Both the position numbers and the translations under genes were made by a program. A model generated the notes under the pieces. The model made no database searches and was not told the DNA's origin. It was given only the letters and a program-made list of their open reading frames with translations. From a virus, in the IMG/VR virus record IMGVR_UViG_3300032053_000071, positions 1 through 61,985 of that record: DNA of 61,985 bases. One strand, 5' to 3'. Within the stretch, counting starts at the first letter, position 1. Each line of letters opens with the position of its first letter. Of the stretch, positions 293 through 10,181 are shown piece by piece.

Positions 293-538
293 ATGACATC
301 AATAGAATGGTTAGTAGAAGAAATAAAAACTTCAAAGTATTATTTAAAATTAATGGCAGAAATAAAAAGTAGAAGTACAATATTACAACCTAACATATTT
401 GAACAAGCAAAAGAAATGGAAAGGCAACAAATTATGACAGCTTTTACTCAAGGAGATATATTTGGAGCAGATTACTTTGACGGAGTAAATATAACGGAAG
501 AAAATTATTATAACCAAACTTTTGTTGATGTCGATTAG
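293..538 (+). CDS. Hypothetical 81-residue protein
   Basis: This small acidic protein starts MTSIEWLVEEIK and contains FEQAKEMERQQIMTAF, a segment I associate with short uncharacterised proteins of Bacteroidota phages and hosts. No catalytic motif is visible. The ATG at 293 is 20 bp after the upstream gene, preceded by A-rich sequence and no Shine-Dalgarno. Its stop lies 5 bp before the first attC-like element (543-639). It could be the last native gene before the cassettes or the gene of an older cassette. No matching R' box (expected GTTAGTGGC) is seen upstream, only GTTAACAAC near 274. Confidence 0.75.
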   Translation: MTSIEWLVEEIKTSKYYLKLMAEIKSRSTILQPNIFEQAKEMERQQIMTAFTQGDIFGADYFDGVNITEENYYNQTFVDVD

Positions 539-542
539 CCTT

Positions 543-639
543 GCCACTAACGGTATCGGGCTTGGCGAAGGTGGGCTTGTAGGATGCTCAATTTTAGCAG
601 GATGTGTCTGCCCACTTTTGCCAAACCCGTGTTATAAGC
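543..639 (+). other. Integron attC-like recombination site, copy 1
   Basis: This 97-bp imperfect palindrome runs from GCCACTAAC (543-551) to GTTATAAGC (631-639). The inner arms 557-576 and 610-629 pair with 17 Watson-Crick pairs, two G-T pairs and one mismatch, and the loop carries short sub-repeats. It ends with a G^TTRRRY-type core, so the expected crossover lies between 631 and 632. A second copy of the same length at 1295-1391 has an almost identical centre. The two ends of this copy do not match each other, as expected when R'' and R' belong to different cassettes. Confidence 0.82.
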
Positions 640-1383
640 TGGCTGCGGTTAATTAAACGAAAATCTTAAATTGAAATGAAAATATTAGTAGGATGTGAGG
701 AAAGCCAGGAAGTAACTAAAGCCCTAAGAGAATTAGGATTTGAAGCGTTTAGTTGCGACTTGCAGGAATGTTCAGGCGGAAAACCTGAATGGCATTTGCA
801 AATGGATGTTTTTGAAGCGATAAAATTAGGATGGGATATGGCGATATTTTTCCCGACTTGCACATATTTAACGATAAGTGCGAACAAATGGTATAAAGAC
901 CAACCACCACGCAAAAGCGGAACATTAGTAGGAGAGGAAAGAAGGGATGCAAGAATTGAAGCAATTGATTTTTTTATGAGGCTTTACAATTGTGAAATAC
1001 CAAATGTTGCTATCGAAAACCCGATTGGCGTAATGAGTAGCGAATTTAGAAAGCCTGACCAAGTATTGCAACCCTGGATGTTTGGACACGGAGAAACGAA
1101 AGCAACTTGTTTATGGCTGAAAGGATTGCCGAAATTGATACCAACAAACATAGTTGAAGGTAGAGTGCAAAGATTGCACCTATTGCCAAAAACAAAAGAT
1201 AGGGCAAAACTCAGAAGCAAAACATATCCAGGAATTGCAAAGGCTATGGCTGAACAATGGGGAACTTTCATTCGCAGCAGGAACGTAGCAGCTTGCTTAT
1301 AACGTTTTCGGGCTTGGCGAAGGTGGGCTTGTAGGATGCTTAAAGTTAGCAGAATGTGTCTGCCCACTTTTGCCAAACCCGTG
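632..1383 (+). mobile_element. Integron-type gene cassette 1 (methyltransferase-like gene)
   Basis: The unit starts at TTATAAGC (after the crossover G at 631) and ends at the G of the next core (1383), 752 bp in all. Its own R'' box, GCTTATAAC at 1295-1303, is the exact reverse complement of the R' box at its start, GTTATAAGC at 631-639. On excision to a circle these would form one complementary attC. That pairing within each cassette is diagnostic of integron cassettes and is not expected of an ordinary repeat. The cassette carries one promoterless-looking gene close to its 5' edge and no integrase. Confidence 0.8.
676..1302 (+). CDS. DNA cytosine methyltransferase-like protein (cassette gene)
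   Basis: The 208-residue protein has a Rossmann-type N-terminus (MKILVGCEES, residues 1-10), the pattern of a SAM-binding motif I. It also has PTC at 60-62, like the catalytic PC motif, and ENP at 114-116, like the ENV motif of C5 methyltransferases. It belongs to the short family found in many phages and mobile elements beginning 'VGCEES' with 'CSGG.PEWH'. At about 210 residues it lacks the usual target-recognition half, so base specificity cannot be read. The stop codon (1300-1302) lies inside the R'' box of the attC site, as is common for cassette genes. Its likely role is host or phage DNA modification against restriction. The activity assignment is inferred from the motifs. Confidence 0.72.
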   Translation: MKILVGCEESQEVTKALRELGFEAFSCDLQECSGGKPEWHLQMDVFEAIKLGWDMAIFFPTCTYLTISANKWYKDQPPRKSGTLVGEERRDARIEAIDFFMRLYNCEIPNVAIENPIGVMSSEFRKPDQVLQPWMFGHGETKATCLWLKGLPKLIPTNIVEGRVQRLHLLPKTKDRAKLRSKTYPGIAKAMAEQWGTFIRSRNVAACL

Positions 1384-1391
1384 TTATGCAC
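1295..1391 (+). other. Integron attC-like recombination site, copy 2
   Basis: This 97-bp imperfect palindrome runs from R'' GCTTATAAC (1295-1303) to R' GTTATGCAC (1383-1391). The arms at 1309-1328 and 1362-1381 are identical in sequence to the arms of copy 1, and the intervening loop is near-identical. The predicted crossover is between G1383 and T1384. R'' matches the start of cassette 1 and R' matches the end of cassette 2. Confidence 0.85.
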
Positions 1392-2407
1392 AGTACGGTT
1401 TATTTAACACAAACTTTAATACAAAGAACTAAAAAAAATTTAAAAAATGAGCGTTGGACAAAATATTTTTGAAAAAAATAAAATATATCACGGTGATTGT
1501 TTGGAAGTAATGAAACAAATATCTGATAAGAGTATATCATTAGTCGTGGTAGATTTACCTTATAATATTGGTAAAGCATATAAAAGTGATTTAGAATGGG
1601 ATAAGTGGAATACTATTGATGAATATATTAAATGGGTTGGAATGGGGTTTAAAGAAGTAGAGAGAATATTAAAAGATAATGGTTCTTTTTATTGGTTTCA
1701 CAACGATTTTGAAACATTGTGTGAAATACAACAATGGATTAAAAAAAATACCAATTTTAAATACAGACAATTTATAAATTGGAATAAAAGATTTGATGGT
1801 GGTAAAAAGAAATCTTATTTAGATGGTTATGTAATGGAAGAAAGAACAAAAAACTATTATAAAATGTGTGAGTATATTATGTATTATACATTTGAAAATA
1901 GTTGGAAAATTAAAACCGAAAGAGAAAAACGAGCATTAAAACAAACTGATATTTCAAAGGAAATAAAATCTAAAAATGATAATTTTACAGGTTGGTTTTC
2001 AAATATTGAAAGTGGAAAGTATTTTCCAACAAATGAAACAATTAAACCAATAACAAAATATCTTGGATTAACAATGGATGATTTGGTTCATACTTTTAAT
2101 AACCAAAAATTACATCATTCGGTTTGGAATTACGAAATAACCGAAAAAACAATACACCCAACACAAAAACCGTTGGATTTAATAAAAAACATAATACTAC
2201 ATAGTTCAAATGAAGGAGATTTAGTTTTAGATTATACCGCAGGTTATTCAACAACTGCTATCGCTTGTATAGAAACTAAACGAGATTATATTATGATTGA
2301 AAAAGATGATGAATTTTATAAACATTCTTTAAAAAGGGTGGAAGATTTTTTAAATTCTTTTTCTCACGAAACTTCAAAAGAAGATGAAAAGTAGTATTGT
2401 GCATAAC
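1384..2407 (+). mobile_element. Integron-type gene cassette 2 (N6/N4 methyltransferase), 3' attC truncated
   Basis: The cassette begins TTATGCAC after the crossover G at 1383. Its R'' box GTGCATAAC at 2399-2407, just after the gene, is the exact reverse complement of the R' box at 1383-1391. The rest of the expected attC hairpin does not follow: 2408 onward is unrelated AT-rich DNA leading to the next phage gene. The 3' attC therefore appears deleted or replaced, which would lock this cassette in place. Confidence 0.75.
1447..2394 (+). CDS. DNA adenine/cytosine-N4 methyltransferase with inserted HTH-like segment
   Basis: The 315-residue protein is an N6_N4_Mtase (PF01555-type, beta class). 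The catalytic motif is DLPYNIG (36-42), a DPPY variant. HPTQKP is at 237-242 and the SAM-binding LDYTAGYS at 261-268 follows near the C-terminus. Residues about 155-217 (REKRALKQTDISKEI, then GWFSNIESG) look like an XRE-type helix-turn-helix inserted where the target-recognition domain normally lies. The gene is visibly more AT-rich than the flanking phage genes, supporting acquisition. It forms cassette 2, next to another methyltransferase cassette. The probable role is protection of phage DNA from host restriction. No restriction partner is seen. Confidence 0.85.
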   Translation: MSVGQNIFEKNKIYHGDCLEVMKQISDKSISLVVVDLPYNIGKAYKSDLEWDKWNTIDEYIKWVGMGFKEVERILKDNGSFYWFHNDFETLCEIQQWIKKNTNFKYRQFINWNKRFDGGKKKSYLDGYVMEERTKNYYKMCEYIMYYTFENSWKIKTEREKRALKQTDISKEIKSKNDNFTGWFSNIESGKYFPTNETIKPITKYLGLTMDDLVHTFNNQKLHHSVWNYEITEKTIHPTQKPLDLIKNIILHSSNEGDLVLDYTAGYSTTAIACIETKRDYIMIEKDDEFYKHSLKRVEDFLNSFSHETSKEDEK

Positions 2408-2468
2408 TCATATATTCACGCAATTAACTTCGCCTATTTAATTATATAGAACAATTAAAACAAAGACA

Positions 2469-2642
2469 ATGATAACGATAGAAAAAATAATACAAGACGA
2501 GAAGAAAATGCCCAAGCCTAATCAAGACCTCATCAATAACTTAGAGGCTTTCATTAGCACCGGCACGATAACAATAACAGCATCAAACAACCATATGTGT
2601 ATCAACAGCGACAATGGGAATTATAAAAATAATATAAATTAA
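2469..2642 (+). CDS. Small hypothetical protein, 57 residues
   Basis: An open frame from ATG 2469 to TAA 2640-2642 encodes MITIEKIIQDEKK, followed by a Ser/Thr/Asn-rich tail. Its beginning resembles the start of the protein at 61720 (MKITIEKE), which may be chance. It sits between the truncated cassette end and the promoter at 2669, so it would be the first native gene after the insertion. I see no domain. Confidence 0.45.
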   Translation: MITIEKIIQDEKKMPKPNQDLINNLEAFISTGTITITASNNHMCINSDNGNYKNNIN

Positions 2643-2644
2643 AT

Positions 2645-2676
2645 TGCTGTATTTATAAACAATTCCACTATCTTTG
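2645..2676 (+). promoter_or_regulatory. Promoter, Bacteroidota-type
   Basis: A perfect -7 box TATCTTTG lies at 2669-2676, with a TTG-containing -33 region near 2644-2649 at about 19-bp spacing. Transcription would start roughly 10-15 bp upstream of the ATG at 2696, which has the AATCAAATCAA leader. It should drive the recombination/replication operon from 2696 to about 4799. Confidence 0.75.
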
Positions 2677-2695
2677 TGGAAACAAATCAAATCAA

Positions 2696-3001
2696 ATGAA
2701 ATCAGACATCTTCAATCAGTATGCCTCTACTATAGCCGACATGTCAGGCATAGATAAGGAGGATTTGTTCTCAAAGAACAAGACAAGAACGATATCAGAA
2801 GCACGTCACTTGTTATACTATCTGTGTAACAAAAGGATGATTGCCGTATCGTACATCAAGAAGTACATGGAGGACAACGGCTACAAGGTTGGCTTCTTCC
2901 CAATTACTTATGGTATTAAGATAGCAAAGCAAAAGGTTGATAAAGACCCTGACTACCTATCGTTGATATCTAAGATAGACAAGAGAATCACTATTAAATA
3001 A
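2696..3001 (+). CDS. DnaA domain IV-like DNA-binding protein
   Basis: The 101-residue protein resembles the C-terminal DNA-binding domain of DnaA standing alone. The segment SEARHLLYYLCNKRM matches the A-R...A.YL conserved helix of domain IV. A later segment, ITYGIKIAKQKVDKD, corresponds to the DHTTV.YA..K recognition helix region in degenerate form. No AAA+ ATPase domain is attached. It is the first gene after promoter 2669 and precedes the Sak annealing protein. A role in origin recognition or in competing for DnaA boxes is inferred. A second, clearer DnaA-IV protein is encoded at 10922. Confidence 0.6.
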   Translation: MKSDIFNQYASTIADMSGIDKEDLFSKNKTRTISEARHLLYYLCNKRMIAVSYIKKYMEDNGYKVGFFPITYGIKIAKQKVDKDPDYLSLISKIDKRITIK

Positions 3002-3023
3002 TAATCAAATCAAATCAAACAAC

Positions 3024-3635
3024 ATGGCAGACAAAAATTCAATCTTTCAAACGCTTTCGTCCATTAGCGTAAAGGACAAAATTGAGCGTAAGGGTAATCT
3101 TGATTACCTGTCTTGGGCAAACGCTTGGGGAACGCTAAAGGCTAATTACCCTGACGCACAGCGTAGGGTGTATGAGCATGACCACACCGGATTCAATTAC
3201 TTTACTGATGGTAGGACTGCTTGGGTAAAGGTAGGTATAGTTATCGGCGACTTAGAGCACGTAGATTACCTACCTATTATGGACTTCAGAAACAATGCCA
3301 TACCTATTGAGAAGATAACATCAATGGACGTTAACAAGGCTATACAGCGTAGCACAGCTAAGGCTATCGCTATGCATGGTCTTGGACTAAGCCTATGGAC
3401 AGGCGAAGATGTACCTGAGTTGACTACTGACGCACCTGCAAAGGCAGACAAGACTGATAAGGCAGTTAAGTTAATTACGCTAAGCAAGGGATCAGAGAAT
3501 TGGGACAACGTAGTTAAGTATGTTGAGACTAACAAGGAGTTAGGCTTTGAGAAAATCAAGCAGCAGTTGTCAAGGAAGTACGCACTTAGTCCTGCAGTAG
3601 TAAAGGAACTATCATCTTTAACCGATAAATCTTAA
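3024..3635 (+). CDS. Single-strand annealing protein, Sak/DUF1071 type
   Basis: The 203-residue protein matches the DUF1071 (Sak-type, Rad52-like) family. Features seen are DYLSWANAWGTLKANYP near residues 28-44, an internal Trp-Val-Lys strand, and MDVNKAIQRSTAKAIAMHGLGLSLW around 107-131, a segment very characteristic of the family. The variable C-terminal tail after about residue 140 is typical. It would anneal single strands during recombination-dependent replication. The next gene is a RecE-like exonuclease and the one after an SSB-like protein, giving the usual exonuclease/annealase/SSB trio. Confidence 0.85.
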   Translation: MADKNSIFQTLSSISVKDKIERKGNLDYLSWANAWGTLKANYPDAQRRVYEHDHTGFNYFTDGRTAWVKVGIVIGDLEHVDYLPIMDFRNNAIPIEKITSMDVNKAIQRSTAKAIAMHGLGLSLWTGEDVPELTTDAPAKADKTDKAVKLITLSKGSENWDNVVKYVETNKELGFEKIKQQLSRKYALSPAVVKELSSLTDKS

Positions 3636-3638
3636 TCC

Positions 3639-4400
3639 ATGGAAAATATGATTTTTGATACACTACAAAGTGAACTCATAGAAAAATTAAAAGACGACAA
3701 AGAATATTATTCAGGCATTGGAAAGAATTACCTATCCAATTCTGACATCGGAATCCTGCTTAACAATCCTAAGGACTTTGGAAAACCAAGAGAAGACAAC
3801 AAGAATTTTGCTGATGGACGTTATTTTCATCAGCTTCTTCTTGAGCCTGAAAAGGCTGATGTTGCTCATGTTGTGGACGTAAGTACACGCACAACGAAAG
3901 AATACAAGAACTATTGTGAGGACAATAACATAGCTTTTTGTATGTTAAAGAAGGAGCAAGATGAAATTAAAAAACTTGTCTCAATAATTAGAGGCAATAT
4001 TCAATTTTATGACGATATTTACGCTCCGGGAAACGAATTTGAGGTGCCTTCCATTGGAGTTATTCATGGTATGAATTGGAAAGGTAAAGCTGACATAGTA
4101 GGGAATGATTTTATCATAGACTTAAAAACAACAAGTGATGTACACAAATTCAAATGGTCAGCAAAGTCATATAACTATGACTCTCAGTGTTACATCTATC
4201 AGCAGTTATTTGGACGTCCGTTGGCTTTCTACGTTATCGACAAAGGTACCGGTCAACTCGGGATATTCAGACCTACAGAAAATTTCATTAAAGGTGGTGA
4301 GGTGAAGGTTGCAAAAGCTATTGAAGTATATAACAAGTTCTTTAGCGATGATTCACATGACGATATCGCTAACTACTATATTGACGAAACACTAGATTAA
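3639..4400 (+). CDS. RecE-like PD-(D/E)XK exonuclease
   Basis: The 253-residue protein has the DUF3799/YqaJ-like exonuclease layout. An N-terminal SNSDIG...NNPKDF leads to GRYFHQLLLEPE (His64), then KGKADIVGNDFIIDLKTT with Asp152, Asp161 and Lys163 as the PD-(D/E)XK core. A YDSQCYIYQQLF helix (around 180-191) supplies the conserved Gln. It begins 4 bp after the Sak gene and probably degrades 5' strands of double-strand ends to feed the annealing protein. Family and motif assignment is strong. Polarity is inferred from family knowledge. Confidence 0.85.
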   Translation: MENMIFDTLQSELIEKLKDDKEYYSGIGKNYLSNSDIGILLNNPKDFGKPREDNKNFADGRYFHQLLLEPEKADVAHVVDVSTRTTKEYKNYCEDNNIAFCMLKKEQDEIKKLVSIIRGNIQFYDDIYAPGNEFEVPSIGVIHGMNWKGKADIVGNDFIIDLKTTSDVHKFKWSAKSYNYDSQCYIYQQLFGRPLAFYVIDKGTGQLGIFRPTENFIKGGEVKVAKAIEVYNKFFSDDSHDDIANYYIDETLD

Positions 4401-4478
4401 AATGCTTGTCAGTTTACTTAGCCTCAGGGGTGTACTGATAAGATAAATAGACTGAGGCAAATTTAAAAATTAAAAAAA

Positions 4479-4799
4479 ATGGCACAAGACGAAAAAATCT
4501 TTGCAGACGGATTCAGTTTCAAAAGAAATGAAAACGCACCCGACTTTGTAGTTGGAAGACTTTCAATGAAAGTAGATGACGCTATCGCTTTTATGCGTGA
4601 GCATGACAAGAAAGGATGGATTAACCTAAGTATTAAAACAGCACGTAGTGGGAATCATTACGTTGAGTTGGATACGTTTGAACCCAAAGGTTCAGCAGGT
4701 AAGGATTCAGACAGCAGCAGTAGCGTTAGTAAAAAATCATCAAGACCAAAAGTAAAAGAGGCTATTGAGTCTGATGATGACGATAAGTTGCCGTTCTAA
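4479..4799 (+). CDS. Probable single-stranded DNA-binding protein
   Basis: The 106-residue protein has a compact N-terminal domain of about 70 residues (FSFKRNENAPDFVVGRLSMKV, then WINLSIKTARSGNHYVELD). A Ser-rich linker and an extreme acidic C-terminus ending DDDDKLPF follow. The tail is the hallmark of bacterial and phage SSBs that use a D-D-D-x-x-P-F tip to recruit partners. The core is shorter than a canonical OB fold (about 110), so it could be a compact viral SSB. Its position after annealase and exonuclease genes supports the role. A strong terminator follows 22 bp later. Confidence 0.7.
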   Translation: MAQDEKIFADGFSFKRNENAPDFVVGRLSMKVDDAIAFMREHDKKGWINLSIKTARSGNHYVELDTFEPKGSAGKDSDSSSSVSKKSSRPKVKEAIESDDDDKLPF

Positions 4800-4821
4800 C
4801 CTATTACCGAAGCCTAAAAAT

Positions 4822-4845
4822 GGGGAGCTAGTCTCCCCTTTTTTT
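4822..4845 (+). terminator. Rho-independent terminator
   Basis: A perfect 6-bp stem GGGGAG/CTCCCC (4822-4827 and 4833-4838) with loop CTAGT is followed by a run of seven T. It closes the recombination operon ending with the SSB-like gene. Confidence 0.88.
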
Positions 4846-4879
4846 ACCACTTTACTATGCCAATAATGATAAATAAAGA

Positions 4880-5017
4880 CCCCCTACTCTTTCTATATAT
4901 ATTTATATACTCTTTTCTTTTTTATTAATTACGTTTTGAATTTAAAATCGACATAAAAGACATTAGTAATAGTAATCAATTAGTTACAAAAATTAATCAA
5001 ACATAAAAACGGTATAA
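4880..5017 (+). repeat. AT-rich intergenic element, copy A (leader of primase-helicase gene)
   Basis: This about 138-bp block starts CCCCCTACTCTTTCTATATA and contains a GACAT-N5-GACATTAGTA motif near 4949-4967. It ends AATCAA...CGGTATA just before the ATG at 5019. A diverged second copy lies at 52737-52862 with the same order of landmarks: CCCTACTCTCTCTATATAT, TTGACAT-N5-GACATTAGTA, AATCAATAAGTTA, CGGTATA. It fills most of the gap between terminator 4845 and the primase-helicase gene. It may be a promoter/operator or origin element. Nothing in it codes. Confidence 0.7.
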
Positions 5018-5018
5018 C

Positions 5019-7445
5019 ATGGCATTACATGACATAACTATATTTAAAAACATCAGAGACACTGATACTCCCTTCTTCAGGCCTGTTCAGGCAATCCTTG
5101 AAAGGATTAAGGATGGAGCGACAAAGGAACTCATAAAGAAGATTAGACTAGAGAAGAGCAAGTCAGATAGGAATGAGATGAAGAAGCTACTGCCGGCTAT
5201 ATGCTTCAGCGGTACGTTTAATAAGAGGGCTGACAATGCACTCATAGAGCACAGCGGACTATTATGCTTGGACTTTGATGGATACGACAAGCAGAAGACC
5301 CTACTGCAGGATAAGGAGAACTTATCAAGAAGCAAGTACGTCTACTCAGTATTCATATCACCCTCAGGAGATGGCTTAAAGGTGCTCGTAAAGATACCTG
5401 CCGACCCTGAGAATCATACAAACTACTTCAATTCGCTAGAAAGGCACTTTAATTCGCCTTTCTTTGACAAAACGAGTAAGAACCTTAGTCGAGTGTGTTA
5501 TGAGTCCTATGACCCTCTAATACACGTAAACGAGAACTCGTCCATTTGGGACCTCATAGAGGAACCGGAATACAACGAGGTAAGCAAGGTTAAAGACTCC
5601 CCTACTATACCAATCACGGATGAGAATAAGATAGTAGAGATACTTGTTAAGTGGTGGACAACTAAGTACCCAATGCATGAGGGGCAACGTAACCACAACG
5701 CCTACGTTTTAGCTATGGCATTTAATGACTTCGGTATTAACAAAAGCCTTGCGTCCTACGTGCTGAATCAGTATGCTACTAGCGACTTCCCTATCAGGGA
5801 GATAGCCATTACGATTGACTCGGCATACAAGAATACCTCAAACTTCGGAACTAAGTACTACGAGGATGAGGAGCGTATCAATCAGATAAAGGGAAAGATT
5901 AGACGTGGTGTATCAAAAAAAGAGATTCGCTTCCAAATGCAAGACTCCAACTTGGATAGCGATATAATAGACGCAGTCCTTAATAAGATTGAGGAAGAGA
6001 ACGCAAAGCAAACATTTTGGACAAAGAACGATAAGGGAGTTATCAAGATAGTACACATACTATTCAAGCAGTTCTTGGAGGACTCAGGGTTCTACAAGTA
6101 TTGCCCGGAGGGTGGCAAGAACTACATCTTTGTTAAGGTAACGAACAACCTGATAGACCATACCTCAGAGAAAGAGATAAAGGACTACGTACTTACTCAC
6201 TTGTTAGAGATTGACGACATCAGCATATACAATTACTTTGCTGACAACACCCGGTTCTTTAAGGAGGAGTTTTTGTCTATGCTATCAACCATTGACATAT
6301 ACTTCATCGAGGACAATAAGGACGTTTCGTACCTGTACTACAAGAATTGTGGCATTAAGGTTACTAAGGATGAGATTATACCAATAGACTACCTTGACCT
6401 TGGTGGTTACGTATGGAAAGACCATGTTATTGACAGGAACTTTAACCTATGCAGCGTGACTAGCAGATGTGACTTCAAGAAGTTTATCAGCAACATCAAT
6501 GGCGGAGATCAGAACAGAGTCAAGTCTATGGAGAGCACAATGGGATTCCTTATGCACGGATACAAGAACCTATCGTTCTGTCCTGCGGTAATCCTAAATG
6601 ACGAAGTAATCAGCGACAATCCTGAGGGAGGTACAGGCAAGGGTTTAATTATGAACGCACTAAGCAAGATGAAGAAGCTCGTGGTTATAGATGGCAAATC
6701 GTTTGCCTTTGAGAGAAGCTTCGCTTATCAGTTGGTGTCAGCAGATACGCAGATACTTTGCTTTGATGACGTGAAGAAACATTTTGACTTCGAGCGACTA
6801 TTCAGTGTCGTTACAGAAGGATTGACGCTAGAGAAGAAGAACAAGGACGCTATTAAGATACCATTCAGTAGGTCGCCTAAGATAGCTATAACAACTAACT
6901 ACGCTATCAAAGGTGCTGGCAATTCATTCGCAAGACGTAAGTGGGAGTTAGAGTTACATCAGTTTTACTCAAAGGCTTTTACGCCACTTGATGAATTTGG
7001 TAAGCTGATGTTTGGCGATTGGAACGATGACGATTGGTGTGAGTTTGACAACTACATGATTGGATGCTTAAAAGATTACCTGAAGACAGGACTTGTCAAG
7101 TCAAAGTTTGTCAACTTAAAGATAAGACAACTATCAGCAGAGAGCTGCCACGAGTTTATCGAATGGTGCGGACTTGTTCATGGTCAGGACAGAAGTATGT
7201 CGCTTGACTCAGGCATACGGTTATACAAGAACGACTTATACTATAACTTTATAGACGAGTATCCTGACTACGGACCGAAGGCTAAGATGACTATAAGCAG
7301 AACACGTTTCTACAAATGGTTAGTGTCTTATGCAATCTATAAGGAAGGCGTGATGCCGGAGGAAGGTAGAGACCAAGCAGGCCGTTGGATAATAATAAGA
7401 AAGAAACAAGATTCTGAATATCAAAAACAATTAGATTATGAATAA
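5019..7445 (+). CDS. VirE_N / DUF5906 primase-helicase (SF3-like)
   Basis: The 808-residue replication protein has an N-terminal VirE_N/BT4734-like primase-associated region (about 1-180: LLCLDFDGYD, VFISPSGDGLKVLVKIP). A middle alpha-helical region (about 190-330) follows, then a C-terminal superfamily-3 helicase of the DUF5906 type. Walker A is GGTGKG at about residue 538, Walker B-like ILCFDDVK at about 578, sensor-like KIAITTNY at about 622, and an arginine-finger candidate ARRKWELELHQFY at about 637. It is probably the main replicative helicase-primase, recruiting host polymerase, since no phage polymerase is seen. It is the first gene after copy A of the AT-rich element. Its stop overlaps the next start (ATGAATAA). 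Confidence 0.85.
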   Translation: MALHDITIFKNIRDTDTPFFRPVQAILERIKDGATKELIKKIRLEKSKSDRNEMKKLLPAICFSGTFNKRADNALIEHSGLLCLDFDGYDKQKTLLQDKENLSRSKYVYSVFISPSGDGLKVLVKIPADPENHTNYFNSLERHFNSPFFDKTSKNLSRVCYESYDPLIHVNENSSIWDLIEEPEYNEVSKVKDSPTIPITDENKIVEILVKWWTTKYPMHEGQRNHNAYVLAMAFNDFGINKSLASYVLNQYATSDFPIREIAITIDSAYKNTSNFGTKYYEDEERINQIKGKIRRGVSKKEIRFQMQDSNLDSDIIDAVLNKIEEENAKQTFWTKNDKGVIKIVHILFKQFLEDSGFYKYCPEGGKNYIFVKVTNNLIDHTSEKEIKDYVLTHLLEIDDISIYNYFADNTRFFKEEFLSMLSTIDIYFIEDNKDVSYLYYKNCGIKVTKDEIIPIDYLDLGGYVWKDHVIDRNFNLCSVTSRCDFKKFISNINGGDQNRVKSMESTMGFLMHGYKNLSFCPAVILNDEVISDNPEGGTGKGLIMNALSKMKKLVVIDGKSFAFERSFAYQLVSADTQILCFDDVKKHFDFERLFSVVTEGLTLEKKNKDAIKIPFSRSPKIAITTNYAIKGAGNSFARRKWELELHQFYSKAFTPLDEFGKLMFGDWNDDDWCEFDNYMIGCLKDYLKTGLVKSKFVNLKIRQLSAESCHEFIEWCGLVHGQDRSMSLDSGIRLYKNDLYYNFIDEYPDYGPKAKMTISRTRFYKWLVSYAIYKEGVMPEEGRDQAGRWIIIRKKQDSEYQKQLDYE

Positions 7446-7773
7446 ACAACAAACAATGCATGTTGGAATGATGAACTCATACAATTTGATTATGGATAAA
7501 GTATCAATAGATACAGTAGTGCAATCAGGCATAGGAGTATTCGCACACATACCTGATGCAGAACCTGAACTCAATGACATACAAATGATGATTATATACT
7601 TTCAAGACCATGACATGTATGAGATATGTTCAGACCTTGTAAGTTATATAGAGCAGAACTACAACGATAATGGTTGTCTAAAAGGAAGCGAGTGCGACTG
7701 CGATTACCCAAACATAAAAGAATACGCACGCAGAATGAGGTGCGGAGTATGTAACAAAAGAATTAGAAAGTAA
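7438..7773 (+). CDS. Hypothetical protein with Cys-rich C-terminus
   Basis: The 111-residue protein starts inside the last codons of the primase-helicase gene (8-bp overlap) and ends TAATG into the helicase gene, so it is translationally coupled on both sides. The C-terminal third has Cys residues in a pattern (CLKGSECDCDYP...RCGVCNKRI) that could bind a metal ion. I recognise no family. Context suggests a small replication accessory protein. Confidence 0.75.
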   Translation: MNKQQTMHVGMMNSYNLIMDKVSIDTVVQSGIGVFAHIPDAEPELNDIQMMIIYFQDHDMYEICSDLVSYIEQNYNDNGCLKGSECDCDYPNIKEYARRMRCGVCNKRIRK

Positions 7774-8552
7774 TGGAAATAATAGAAAGGAGATTAGGAT
7801 ACAGCAATACAGATATGCTGAAGCACTGCGAAATATTAAAATCAGTTATGTCAAAATCAAAAGAAGCTAAGATAGGCAGAGGTAAAACCGTTCAGACAAT
7901 TCAGATACCTAAGTACAAAGAAGATAAGGCTATTGTTGAGAAGATTAATAATAGCCTTTCTCATTATGCAAAGAACGATTTTGACTTTAGAGATTATCAG
8001 CGTGACATCATAAAGAGAGGCGTTGAGATAATACAGAAGCATGGCTTCTTGTACTTAGCCATGGAAGTACGTACAGGCAAGACGCTTACGAGTTTAGGAA
8101 TCGCAAACGAAATAAACGCAAAGGTTGTTTTATTTATCACAAAGAAGAAAGCAGTTACATCTATTGCTGCCGACTACAAAGCGCTCAGTCCTGACTGCGA
8201 TATAACTATCATCAATTACGAAAGCTTGCACACGGTACAAAACGATAGCAAATGGGATTTAATTATTTTGGATGAAGCTCACTGTTGTTTTTTGGGAAAC
8301 ACCCTAATTGATGGAATAAAAATAAAGGACATAAAATTGGGCTATTACCTAAATAGTTTTAACTTTGAAGAAAACAGATATGAAAAAAAGAAAGTTGTAA
8401 ATGTTTTTAAAAACAAATTAGACGAAAACTTAGTTAAAATAAAATGTAATGGAAAAGAAATCGTATGTACCGAAAGTCACGAAATATATACCAAAAGAGG
8501 ATGGGTTAAAGCAAAAGACATCTTACCCTCAGATGATTTGCAGGTGGTGTAA
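7773..8552 (+). CDS. SNF2-family helicase N-half fused to N-terminal split intein
   Basis: Residues 1-171 are the N-extein of an SNF2/superfamily-2 DNA helicase: FDFRDYQRDIIKRG (Q-motif region), AMEVRTGKTLTSLG (Walker A, GKT), ITIINYESL, and LIILDEAH (Walker B/DEAH). After DEAH-Cys an intein begins at Cys1 (codon 8286-8288) with CFLGNTLIDG (block A). Block B is CTESHEIYTKRGWVKAKDI, with the TxxH motif, and a stop at 8550-8552 follows. The N-intein is exactly 88 residues, a typical length for naturally split N-inteins. The remainder of the helicase starts again downstream with a C-intein (9090-10181) in the same frame. Trans-splicing is inferred to restore DEAHC-CGAFPKPNKR. Confidence 0.9.
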   Translation: MEIIERRLGYSNTDMLKHCEILKSVMSKSKEAKIGRGKTVQTIQIPKYKEDKAIVEKINNSLSHYAKNDFDFRDYQRDIIKRGVEIIQKHGFLYLAMEVRTGKTLTSLGIANEINAKVVLFITKKKAVTSIAADYKALSPDCDITIINYESLHTVQNDSKWDLIILDEAHCCFLGNTLIDGIKIKDIKLGYYLNSFNFEENRYEKKKVVNVFKNKLDENLVKIKCNGKEIVCTESHEIYTKRGWVKAKDILPSDDLQVV

Positions 8553-9210
8553 TAATAAACTAAGCCATAATCAGATATATGAATTTTTAAGAGGTAAAAC
8601 AAAAGGCAACTCTTGCAGCAAAAGTTGCTCTATGATGATCATGAATTATAAGACTAAAGAACTGTATGATAAAGCAAAAACTTTTAAATGTAAAAATTGT
8701 AGTCTGTTATTTAAGAATACAAAGGAGCATAAAATTTTTACGTGTTCTAAAAAATGCACAAATGAGTTGTCTTCTAAAAGAATGACAAGTAATAACCCAA
8801 TGTCTAGTAAAGACACAAGAATAAAAGTATCTAATACATTAAAAAAAATAAATCATAAACCTAAAATTCAAGGAGGGAATGGAAGGGTGGCTACAATTCA
8901 TCAATTGTCAATGTATAATGAATTATCTAAAATAGATAACTCGTTTGTAATGGAATTAATAGAAAAGACATCTCCATACACAAAAGATTTTAATTCTCCA
9001 TATCATTATAAAATAGATATAGCAAGTAGATTTTATAAGATAGCAATAGAAATAGATGGAAGTAGTCATAACTCAAAAAAAATAAAAGAATGCGACAGTC
9101 GAAAAGAAAAACTATTAAGTTTGAAAGGGTGGAAAGTATTGAGATTATCAAACTTTCAGATACAGAAAGAATTAACGAGTTGTGTGAAGATGGTATTGTC
9201 TATGATGTAG
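8533..9210 (+). CDS. Free-standing homing endonuclease, Vsr-like (DUF559/EDxHD type) with NUMOD3
   Basis: This 225-residue protein is read in a different frame from the intein halves. I chose ATG 8533, overlapping the N-intein stop by 20 bp, because the upstream part of the longer frame (from 8449) is an out-of-frame reading of the intein. The N-terminus has two zinc-knuckle-like motifs (CRWC...CSKSC, then CKNC...CSKKC). NPMSSKDTRIKVSNTLKK follows, a NUMOD3-like DNA-binding element. The C-terminal catalytic domain has IAIEIDGSSH, then DSRKEKLLSLKGWKVLRL, the E-x-DG-x-x-H...D-x-x-R pattern of Vsr/DUF559 nucleases. It lies exactly between the two intein halves and overlaps the C-half start by 121 bp. 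Its likely role is mobility of the locus. It is markedly AT-rich. Confidence 0.87.
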   Translation: MICRWCNNKLSHNQIYEFLRGKTKGNSCSKSCSMMIMNYKTKELYDKAKTFKCKNCSLLFKNTKEHKIFTCSKKCTNELSSKRMTSNNPMSSKDTRIKVSNTLKKINHKPKIQGGNGRVATIHQLSMYNELSKIDNSFVMELIEKTSPYTKDFNSPYHYKIDIASRFYKIAIEIDGSSHNSKKIKECDSRKEKLLSLKGWKVLRLSNFQIQKELTSCVKMVLSMM

Positions 9211-10181
9211 AAGTAGAAGATAATCATAATTACTTAGCAGAAAATATTCTTGTTCATAATTGCGGAGCATTTCCTAAACCTAACAAAAGGTCAACTATGG
9301 TTAGAGACCTTATAAGAAAGCTAAGACCAAAAGTAATACTCCTATCAGGAACACCAACGCCTGAGTCTTACTCTCAGATGTACCATCAGGTATACGCCAT
9401 ACCGGGAAATCCTTTTGCTGAGTTTCCTAACTTCTATCGATTTTGCGATAAGTATGTTAAGGTTAAGGAAAAGAAAGTGAATGGGCTTATGATACGTAAC
9501 TACACTGATGCGTATGAGACGATACTTGATAAGATGAGACCATATACCATCAACTACACACAGCAAGAGGCCGGGTTTATGACTGAGACTATAGAAGAGG
9601 TGCTTGAGGTTGTTATGAAGCCATCGACTTATAATATAATCAAGAAGCTTAAGCGTGACTTGATTGTGGAAGGAAAGGATGATGTGATACTCGCCGACAC
9701 GCCTGTTAAACTTATGATGAAGGTACATCAGTTGTGTTCAGGAACTATAAAGTTTGAGAGCGGTAACTCAATGATACTTGACCTGACTAAGGCTGAGTTT
9801 ATCAAGGAGCACTTTGATGGATTTAAGATTGGAATCTTCTATAAGTTTAAGGAAGAACTCAACGCGCTTCAGCAGGTGTTCGGAGATAATATCACAACAA
9901 ATCTTGATGAATTTAACGAAACAAATAAAATCATAGCTTTACAAATAGTTTCAGGTAGGGAAGGCATATCGCTAAAGGCCGCTGATTATTTGGTATATTA
10001 CAATATTGATTTTAGTGCGACAAGTTATTGGCAGTCAAAGGATAGGATGACAACAAAAGACAGATTGTGTAATAAAGTGTATTGGATATTTAGCAAAGGA
10101 GGAATAGAGCACGATATATATAAAGCTGTTACAAAAAAGAAAGACTTTACAATTAATCATTTCAAAAAAACACTATGCTAG
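9090..10181 (+). CDS. C-terminal split intein fused to SNF2-family helicase C-half
   Basis: The frame opens with a C-intein ending in block F (YDVEVEDNHNYLAENI) and block G (LVHN), followed by Cys+1 (9261-9263). The C-extein GAFPKPNKRS follows, with motif III LLSGTPTPES, a helicase C domain, SGREGISLKAADYLVYYN (motif V), and QSKDRMTTKDR (motif VI). The start is uncertain. ATG 9090 gives a 57-residue C-intein, and GTG 9129 would give 44 residues, nearer to known split C-inteins. The coding sequence overlaps the endonuclease gene in another frame. Together with 7773-8285 it encodes a complete SNF2 helicase of about 480 residues, probably in fork remodelling or recombination. Confidence 0.9.
   Translation: MRQSKRKTIKFERVESIEIIKLSDTERINELCEDGIVYDVEVEDNHNYLAENILVHNCGAFPKPNKRSTMVRDLIRKLRPKVILLSGTPTPESYSQMYHQVYAIPGNPFAEFPNFYRFCDKYVKVKEKKVNGLMIRNYTDAYETILDKMRPYTINYTQQEAGFMTETIEEVLEVVMKPSTYNIIKKLKRDLIVEGKDDVILADTPVKLMMKVHQLCSGTIKFESGNSMILDLTKAEFIKEHFDGFKIGIFYKFKEELNALQQVFGDNITTNLDEFNETNKIIALQIVSGREGISLKAADYLVYYNIDFSATSYWQSKDRMTTKDRLCNKVYWIFSKGGIEHDIYKAVTKKKDFTINHFKKTLC

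Follow-up and report, generated by a model that had tools for sequence, protein, structure and literature searches.

The closest described systems are the integrons and CALINs reported in phages by Qi et al. in 2023 (PMC9892861), with which phage-borne cassette arrays carrying methyltransferases were already published. That paper describes functional attC sites, including those of a Polaribacter phage; IntI1 in E. coli recombined five of six virulent-phage attCs, a set to which a Polaribacter phage contributed one, and the bottom strand is given as the more recombinogenic in known integrons. The arrays reported there on virulent phages resemble the one described below in consisting of attC-bounded cassettes, methyltransferases included, with no integrase. 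They differ from it in that the accessible text gives virulent phages no attI, no movement of cassettes from isolate to isolate, no consistently reversed genes and no matching host platform, and does not mention Flavobacterium. For the Bacteroidetes, IntegronFinder 2.0 reported a single complete integron, everything else being In0 elements. In the open-access literature, which did not include preprints or most subscription papers, no work closer than that of Qi et al. 2023 turned up, and there was no account of an attI carried by virulent phages, of reversed cassettes, of cassette movement between isolates, or of a platform lacking IntI. These four features are new within the searchable literature.

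The window analyzed here is the whole 61,985-nucleotide stretch of IMG/VR record IMGVR_UViG_3300032053_000071. It is a phage-type record, with PHROG matches for its terminase, portal, and virion proteins, and it very probably represents a Bacteroidota-type phage carrying an integron-type cassette array. A scan of the entire window for cassette chaining, with a total of four links per strand, formed chained cassettes at one place only, the array at the left end. Its features are as follows.

293..538, plus strand: 81-residue open reading frame, outside the array
543..639: attC1 hairpin at the distal end of the array, cores 543-551 and 631-639; supported by pairing, covariation, and folding
551..1302, minus strand (integron frame): cassette 1, beginning TTATAAGC, then the antisense gene, then attC1 up to its G
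634..675, plus strand: leader from attC1 to gene 1, common to many viral cassettes
676..1302, plus strand: gene 1, DNA methyltransferase, 208 residues; TAA stop (1300-1302) inside the cassette-end core
1295..1391: attC2 hairpin, cores 1295-1303 and 1383-1391; supported by pairing, covariation, and folding
1303..2406, minus strand (integron frame): cassette 2, attI-proximal, beginning TTATGCAC, then the antisense gene, then attC2 up to its G
1386..1446, plus strand: leader from attC2 to gene 2
1447..2394, plus strand: gene 2, N6/N4 DNA methyltransferase, 315 residues
2404..2424, minus strand: phage-borne attI-like site, TTGCGTGAATATATGAG^TTA, with the predicted cleavage point between 2406 and 2407

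The first-pass annotation of this DNA had assigned one modification gene to each cassette, and family searches agree. Gene 1 matches the DNA methyltransferase family phrog_757 (E=7e-62), with no match in the Pfam scan, and gene 2 matches both PF01555, N6_N4_Mtase (E=9e-37), and phrog_67 (E=1.4e-57). By blastn, the regions that include the two leaders (548-676 and 1299-1465) are homologous to other viral loci. The leader at 634-675 may hold a promoter. Because both genes start beside an attC and its leader, expression probably proceeds from the attC-side leader rather than from an integron promoter. Just distal to the array, 537-551 forms a cassette-end-like sequence for which no matching cassette start was found; a scan of the window against Rfam gave no match.

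The two 97-nucleotide imperfect palindromes on which that annotation rested are present at 543-639 and 1295-1391, 91% identical over 96 nucleotides and with identical arms. The pairing it had noted between cassette ends is likewise exact. The start of cassette 1, GTTATAAGC (631-639), is the reverse complement of its end, GCTTATAAC (1295-1303), and the start of cassette 2, GTTATGCAC (1383-1391), is the reverse complement of its end, GTGCATAAC (2399-2407), over nine nucleotides each. Counted more widely, 14 of 16 nucleotides pair between the ends of cassette 1 and 13 of 14 between those of cassette 2. This rule is general. A pattern scan of IMG/VR for the element found 91 related viral stretches with 123 sites, and an exact cassette-end match of at least 8 nucleotides was found upstream at 75 and downstream at 92 of the 123, as compared to 2 and 5 for controls with the direction swapped. 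A single 97-mer found no blastn match among phages and plasmids; longer queries retrieved Flavobacterium phages.

Folded as single-stranded DNA, the plus strands of the two hairpins give z-scores of -2.96 and -3.81, with none of 200 shuffles folding as well, and both hairpins fold less well on the minus strand. Since the array reads on the minus strand (see below), the plus strand is the bottom strand. Covariation in the 17-pair attC stem was computed on 48 diverse sites. Pairing is kept in 98.2% of cells, and 13 pairs show two-sided changes, for a total of 149 such changes as compared to 40 in shuffled alignments (0 of 500 shuffles as high). The core had been given as GTTRRRY. Its G^TT is indeed invariant, and position 4 is A at 116 of 123 sites, but position 5 is T at 91 of them, so the strict GTTRRRY form fails at most sites and the core is better written G^TTA, with T the commonest next base. 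We also observed that, in viral cassettes, end pairing reaches past the R box to a near-invariant TT at positions -11 and -10, usually opposite AG or TG, and then resumes beyond it, so that the lower stem is lengthened and contains a fixed mismatch.

Viral cassette chains, viewed in the orientation of the window, finish in a bare cassette end with no attC, followed by a recurring motif. In the window this motif is TAAC|TCATATATTCACGCAA, which on the minus strand reads TTGCGTGAATATATGAG^TTATGCAC, where the first part is an attI-like site and the second the start of a cassette. Such a site stands at one end of the array both in the window (2404-2424) and at other phage array ends. The array order on the minus strand is attI, cassette 2 with attC2, then cassette 1 with attC1. 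On the classical plus-strand reading, cassette 2 would end at 2407 without an attC of its own. We considered this reading and rejected it, as the array ends have the attI motif in common; because 2407 is a junction with the attI-like site rather than the scar of a lost attC, both cassettes are complete. With at least two attCs and no PF00589 match in the window, the array does classify as a CALIN, in a record that may be incomplete. The array is nevertheless more than a CALIN, because it is bounded by a phage-borne attI-like site and is read on the minus strand. In 108 of 111 viral cassettes the gene points towards attI, opposite to the integron norm. In 17 of 18 cases on the bacterial platforms described below, the main gene that follows attI is directed away from it.

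An attI profile was built from the bacterial platform sites, one of which (L264) entered with the wrong GTT picked by the pattern. Against 38,260 control GTT sites, the attI of the window lies beyond the 99.9% quantile of the profile score. Among phage cassette ends generally, 11 of 93 exceed that level, although about half of the 93 run into another attC rather than attI; this count stands as a point against loading by a host integrase.

The locus has relatives in which the cassettes differ and the surroundings do not. The first-pass annotation had proposed a search for phages with other cassettes between the same flanks, and several were found: four phages have the flank at the window attI in common and carry different cassettes. 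The window and the viral record L167 are 99.9% identical over window positions 2401-9632 (7.2 kb), and the break falls exactly at the core, where another cassette replaces cassette 2 of the window. Two more records, L083 and L233, bring two further cassettes to the common flank. No close relative was found whose attI is fully empty, and in MW202828, which has a similar gene order, no attI motif was seen in the stretch examined.

Isolated Flavobacterium phages (Lillamyvirus and Muminvirus) have arrays of the window type beside one common flank. Between lillamy9-1 and the near-identical lillamy9-3, a 439-bp block in mid-array has moved, at 100% identity, to the slot next to attI, turning the order A B C D E F G into F A B C D E G. 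Cassette F is absent from snork6-1, snork6-2 has neither A nor F, and mumin6-3 lacks one cassette that is present in mumin6-1. Excision with re-insertion at attI would predict the array orders seen in these isolates. A specific methyltransferase is missing from every isolate with poor plating on one host (PMC7077304). Methyltransferases of Flavobacterium phages lie in such arrays, which offers an explanation for the published plating difference, and we infer that this difference may trace to a given cassette.

No match to PF00589 (Phage_integrase) was found in the window, in the L167 record, or in four complete isolates, which bears out the earlier statement that the phage lacks an integrase. 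The integron-integrase model was unmatched in 44 of 48 viral records, many of which are fragments. Three viral contigs (L131, L132, and L133) encode XerA-like integrases. These were considered as a source of the activity and set aside; the integrases of L131 and L133 have no adjacent attI.

Arrays beside an integrase do occur in Bacteroidota, where the first-pass annotation had suggested looking. A Flavobacterium MAG contig (L110) carries an integrase gene, an attI motif just past the end of the gene, and three attCs, including the window type. Relatives of this integrase are found at E<=1e-60 in 75 of 296 Bacteroidota genomes, about 30 of the 75 at 53% identity or more. By a strict pattern, attI lies 66-123 bp downstream of the integrase in 23 of 30 sampled loci, counting one mis-pick among the 23, and further loci with integrase and attI were found through the cassette partner. 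The attI core of the phage thus recurs in Bacteroidota genomes beside a clade that is not IntI. These counts point to an integron-like platform in about one tenth of the sampled Bacteroidota genomes. Of the 16 genomes that hold the attC, one encodes a canonical IntI that passes the family cut-off. A canonical IntI above that cut-off is encoded by a Kapaibacterium MAG (G008:C101, L111).

The platform integrase has 59 residues between conserved patches, as compared to 98-100 in four IntI proteins, and 18 residues, as compared to 60 in IntI4 (PDB 2a3v), in the region of the additional domain (patch III region). It scores 206.6 bits against TIGR02249, below the cut-off of 265, and 220 bits against the XerA model NF040815, exactly at the cut-off; its best PDB match is an XerC-like chain. 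Its tree places a 35-member platform clade (support 99/98) apart from the four IntI sequences (100/100), with weak deep forks and long branches. Members of the clade have a conserved C-terminal tail of the SPFDDL type. Because the additional domain of about 40 residues is absent, this enzyme is by definition not IntI, a correction to the earlier proposal of loading by a host Bacteroidota integrase. The additional domain has been reported as necessary for IntI activity (Messier and Roy 2001), and its absence is a further point against the host-integrase reading. Definitions that rest on this domain would leave such a Bacteroidota platform out.

Xer enzymes act on dif-type sites. The platform clade is like XerA, XerC, and XerD in its model score and best structural match, and unlike them in adjoining attI and cassette arrays and in its SPFDDL-type tail. 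With canonical integrons the system has in common an attI beside an integrase, hairpin attCs, a cut at G^TT, matching cassette ends, and insertion at attI. It departs from them in an integrase that lacks the additional domain and branches apart, in the opposite direction of the phage cassette genes, and in end pairing that exceeds the 7-nucleotide R box. It is an integron-type system by anatomy. It is not a canonical integron, because the integrase is not IntI and the core is G^TTA rather than strict GTTRRRY.

Where a function can be named, the cargo of these arrays is mainly DNA modification. In a set of 108 distinct viral cassette proteins, there are family matches to N6_N4 methylases (22), C5 methylases (four), MT-A70 (four), Mom (three), and D12 (two), together with one to the Thoeris inhibitor Tad3 and one to a TET-associated glycosyltransferase; 108 control proteins from the same contigs show one N6_N4 and one C5 methylase among the 25 of 37 matched families listed. 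The comparison comes to about 36 (about a third) against 2 (about 2%, among the matches listed for the controls), Fisher P of about 2e-10, as sums over family tables that may hold a few double matches. Because the cargo is mainly DNA modification, we propose that the array serves as an exchangeable set of anti-restriction genes, each cassette of which would presumably benefit the phage.

The direct observations are the anatomy of the array, the rule of end pairing, stem covariation, breaks that fall at the core, relocation of a cassette between isolates, the bacterial platforms, and the bias in cargo. Beyond them, we assign a probability of roughly 0.8 to the reading that this is an integron-type array with a phage attI-like site, a host-supplied recombinase, and a swappable anti-restriction cargo. 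The attI-like site (2404-2424) would be the docking site for cassettes. The host would supply the recombinase, most likely from the Bacteroidota integrase clade found beside the same attI core, acting in trans on the phage array, and this enzyme would cut at G^TT and join circular cassettes by way of folded attC hairpins. The newest cassette would insert beside attI, and older ones would be pushed outwards, excised, or re-inserted at attI, with genes pointing towards attI in the same direction as the downstream phage genes. If this is true, phages would have a modular means of exchanging anti-restriction genes cassette by cassette through an enzyme of the host. The mechanism is directly testable, because cultured phages with differing arrays exist. 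We also favor, with less assurance, the broader view that a second kind of integron, based on a separate XerA-like clade without the IntI domain, has been overlooked in Bacteroidota, and that phages exploit it, carrying its attI together with a phage-specific class of cassettes in which the genes are reversed, a common and exchangeable stock for counter-defense.

Several other explanations must be weighed. The array could be a CALIN of the ordinary kind that Qi et al. 2023 described in phages, its cassettes brought in by a canonical IntI, with the Bacteroidota clade unrelated to it. Recombination of virulent-phage attCs by IntI1 (PMC9892861) speaks for this, as does the one attC-holding genome that has a canonical IntI; however, it is just one genome in 16, the phage attI core recurs beside the non-IntI clade, and IntegronFinder 2.0 reports a single complete integron besides In0 elements in Bacteroidetes, so that we regard such loading as unlikely. 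A recombinase of another kind, encoded by the phage and missed by the models used, would be consistent with the many unannotated phage genes and with the three viral contigs that encode XerA-like integrases. The lack of PF00589 matches in the window and four complete isolates argues against it, as do the 44 of 48 viral records, many of them fragments, that the integrase model leaves unmatched, and the two viral integrases that do not adjoin attI; its probability is low.

Homologous recombination or single-strand annealing between attC bodies might also move the genes, no site-specific enzyme being active at present. In favor are the similarity of the two attC bodies (about 91%) and the Sak-type annealing protein of the phage, and cassette loss between two attCs could arise in this way. 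Insertion beside attI could not, since the attI side offers no attC homology beyond about 8 nucleotides of core, yet cassette F of lillamy9-3 lies exactly there, and at attI the window and L167 diverge into unrelated sequences once past the core. Nor does homology predict cassette-specific end pairing, and we hold this explanation, too, to be improbable. A MITE or transposon-like dispersed palindrome that happens to adjoin methyltransferase genes would fit the presence of the palindrome in many contigs, but cassette-specific pairing at 75 to 92 of 123 sites, as compared to 2 to 5 in controls, the arrays bounded by attI, and the relocation of a whole cassette from the interior to attI make it extremely improbable. 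A transposon-like repeat with target duplications was not found. The phage-borne attI served by a host-supplied recombinase remains our preferred reading.

Some further observations concern the viral collection and the rest of the window. The Pfam scan of viral cassette proteins lists, without a name, one member of the IS605 OrfB/TnpB type, and one viral cassette (L029:2145-3188) encodes a 348-residue protein that resembles this type. A MAG contig titled Nitrosotalea (L107, JAHEYD010000008.1) has a phage-type array with a methyltransferase-like cassette and is probably a misbinned phage contig. In LR756502.1, the 642-kb record of an uncultured phage, positions 579659-579762 weakly match the attC region. 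At 2696-3001 the window encodes a 101-residue protein with a DnaA C-terminal helix-turn-helix, adjoining the Sak-type annealing protein; MW202828 (L219) has a gene named dnaA at the equivalent position. A helicase gene at 7773-10181 is apparently split, with a ResIII and intein-splicing match at 7773-8552, an open reading frame at 8449-9210, and the remaining helicase part at 9090-10181, an arrangement that suggests an intein.
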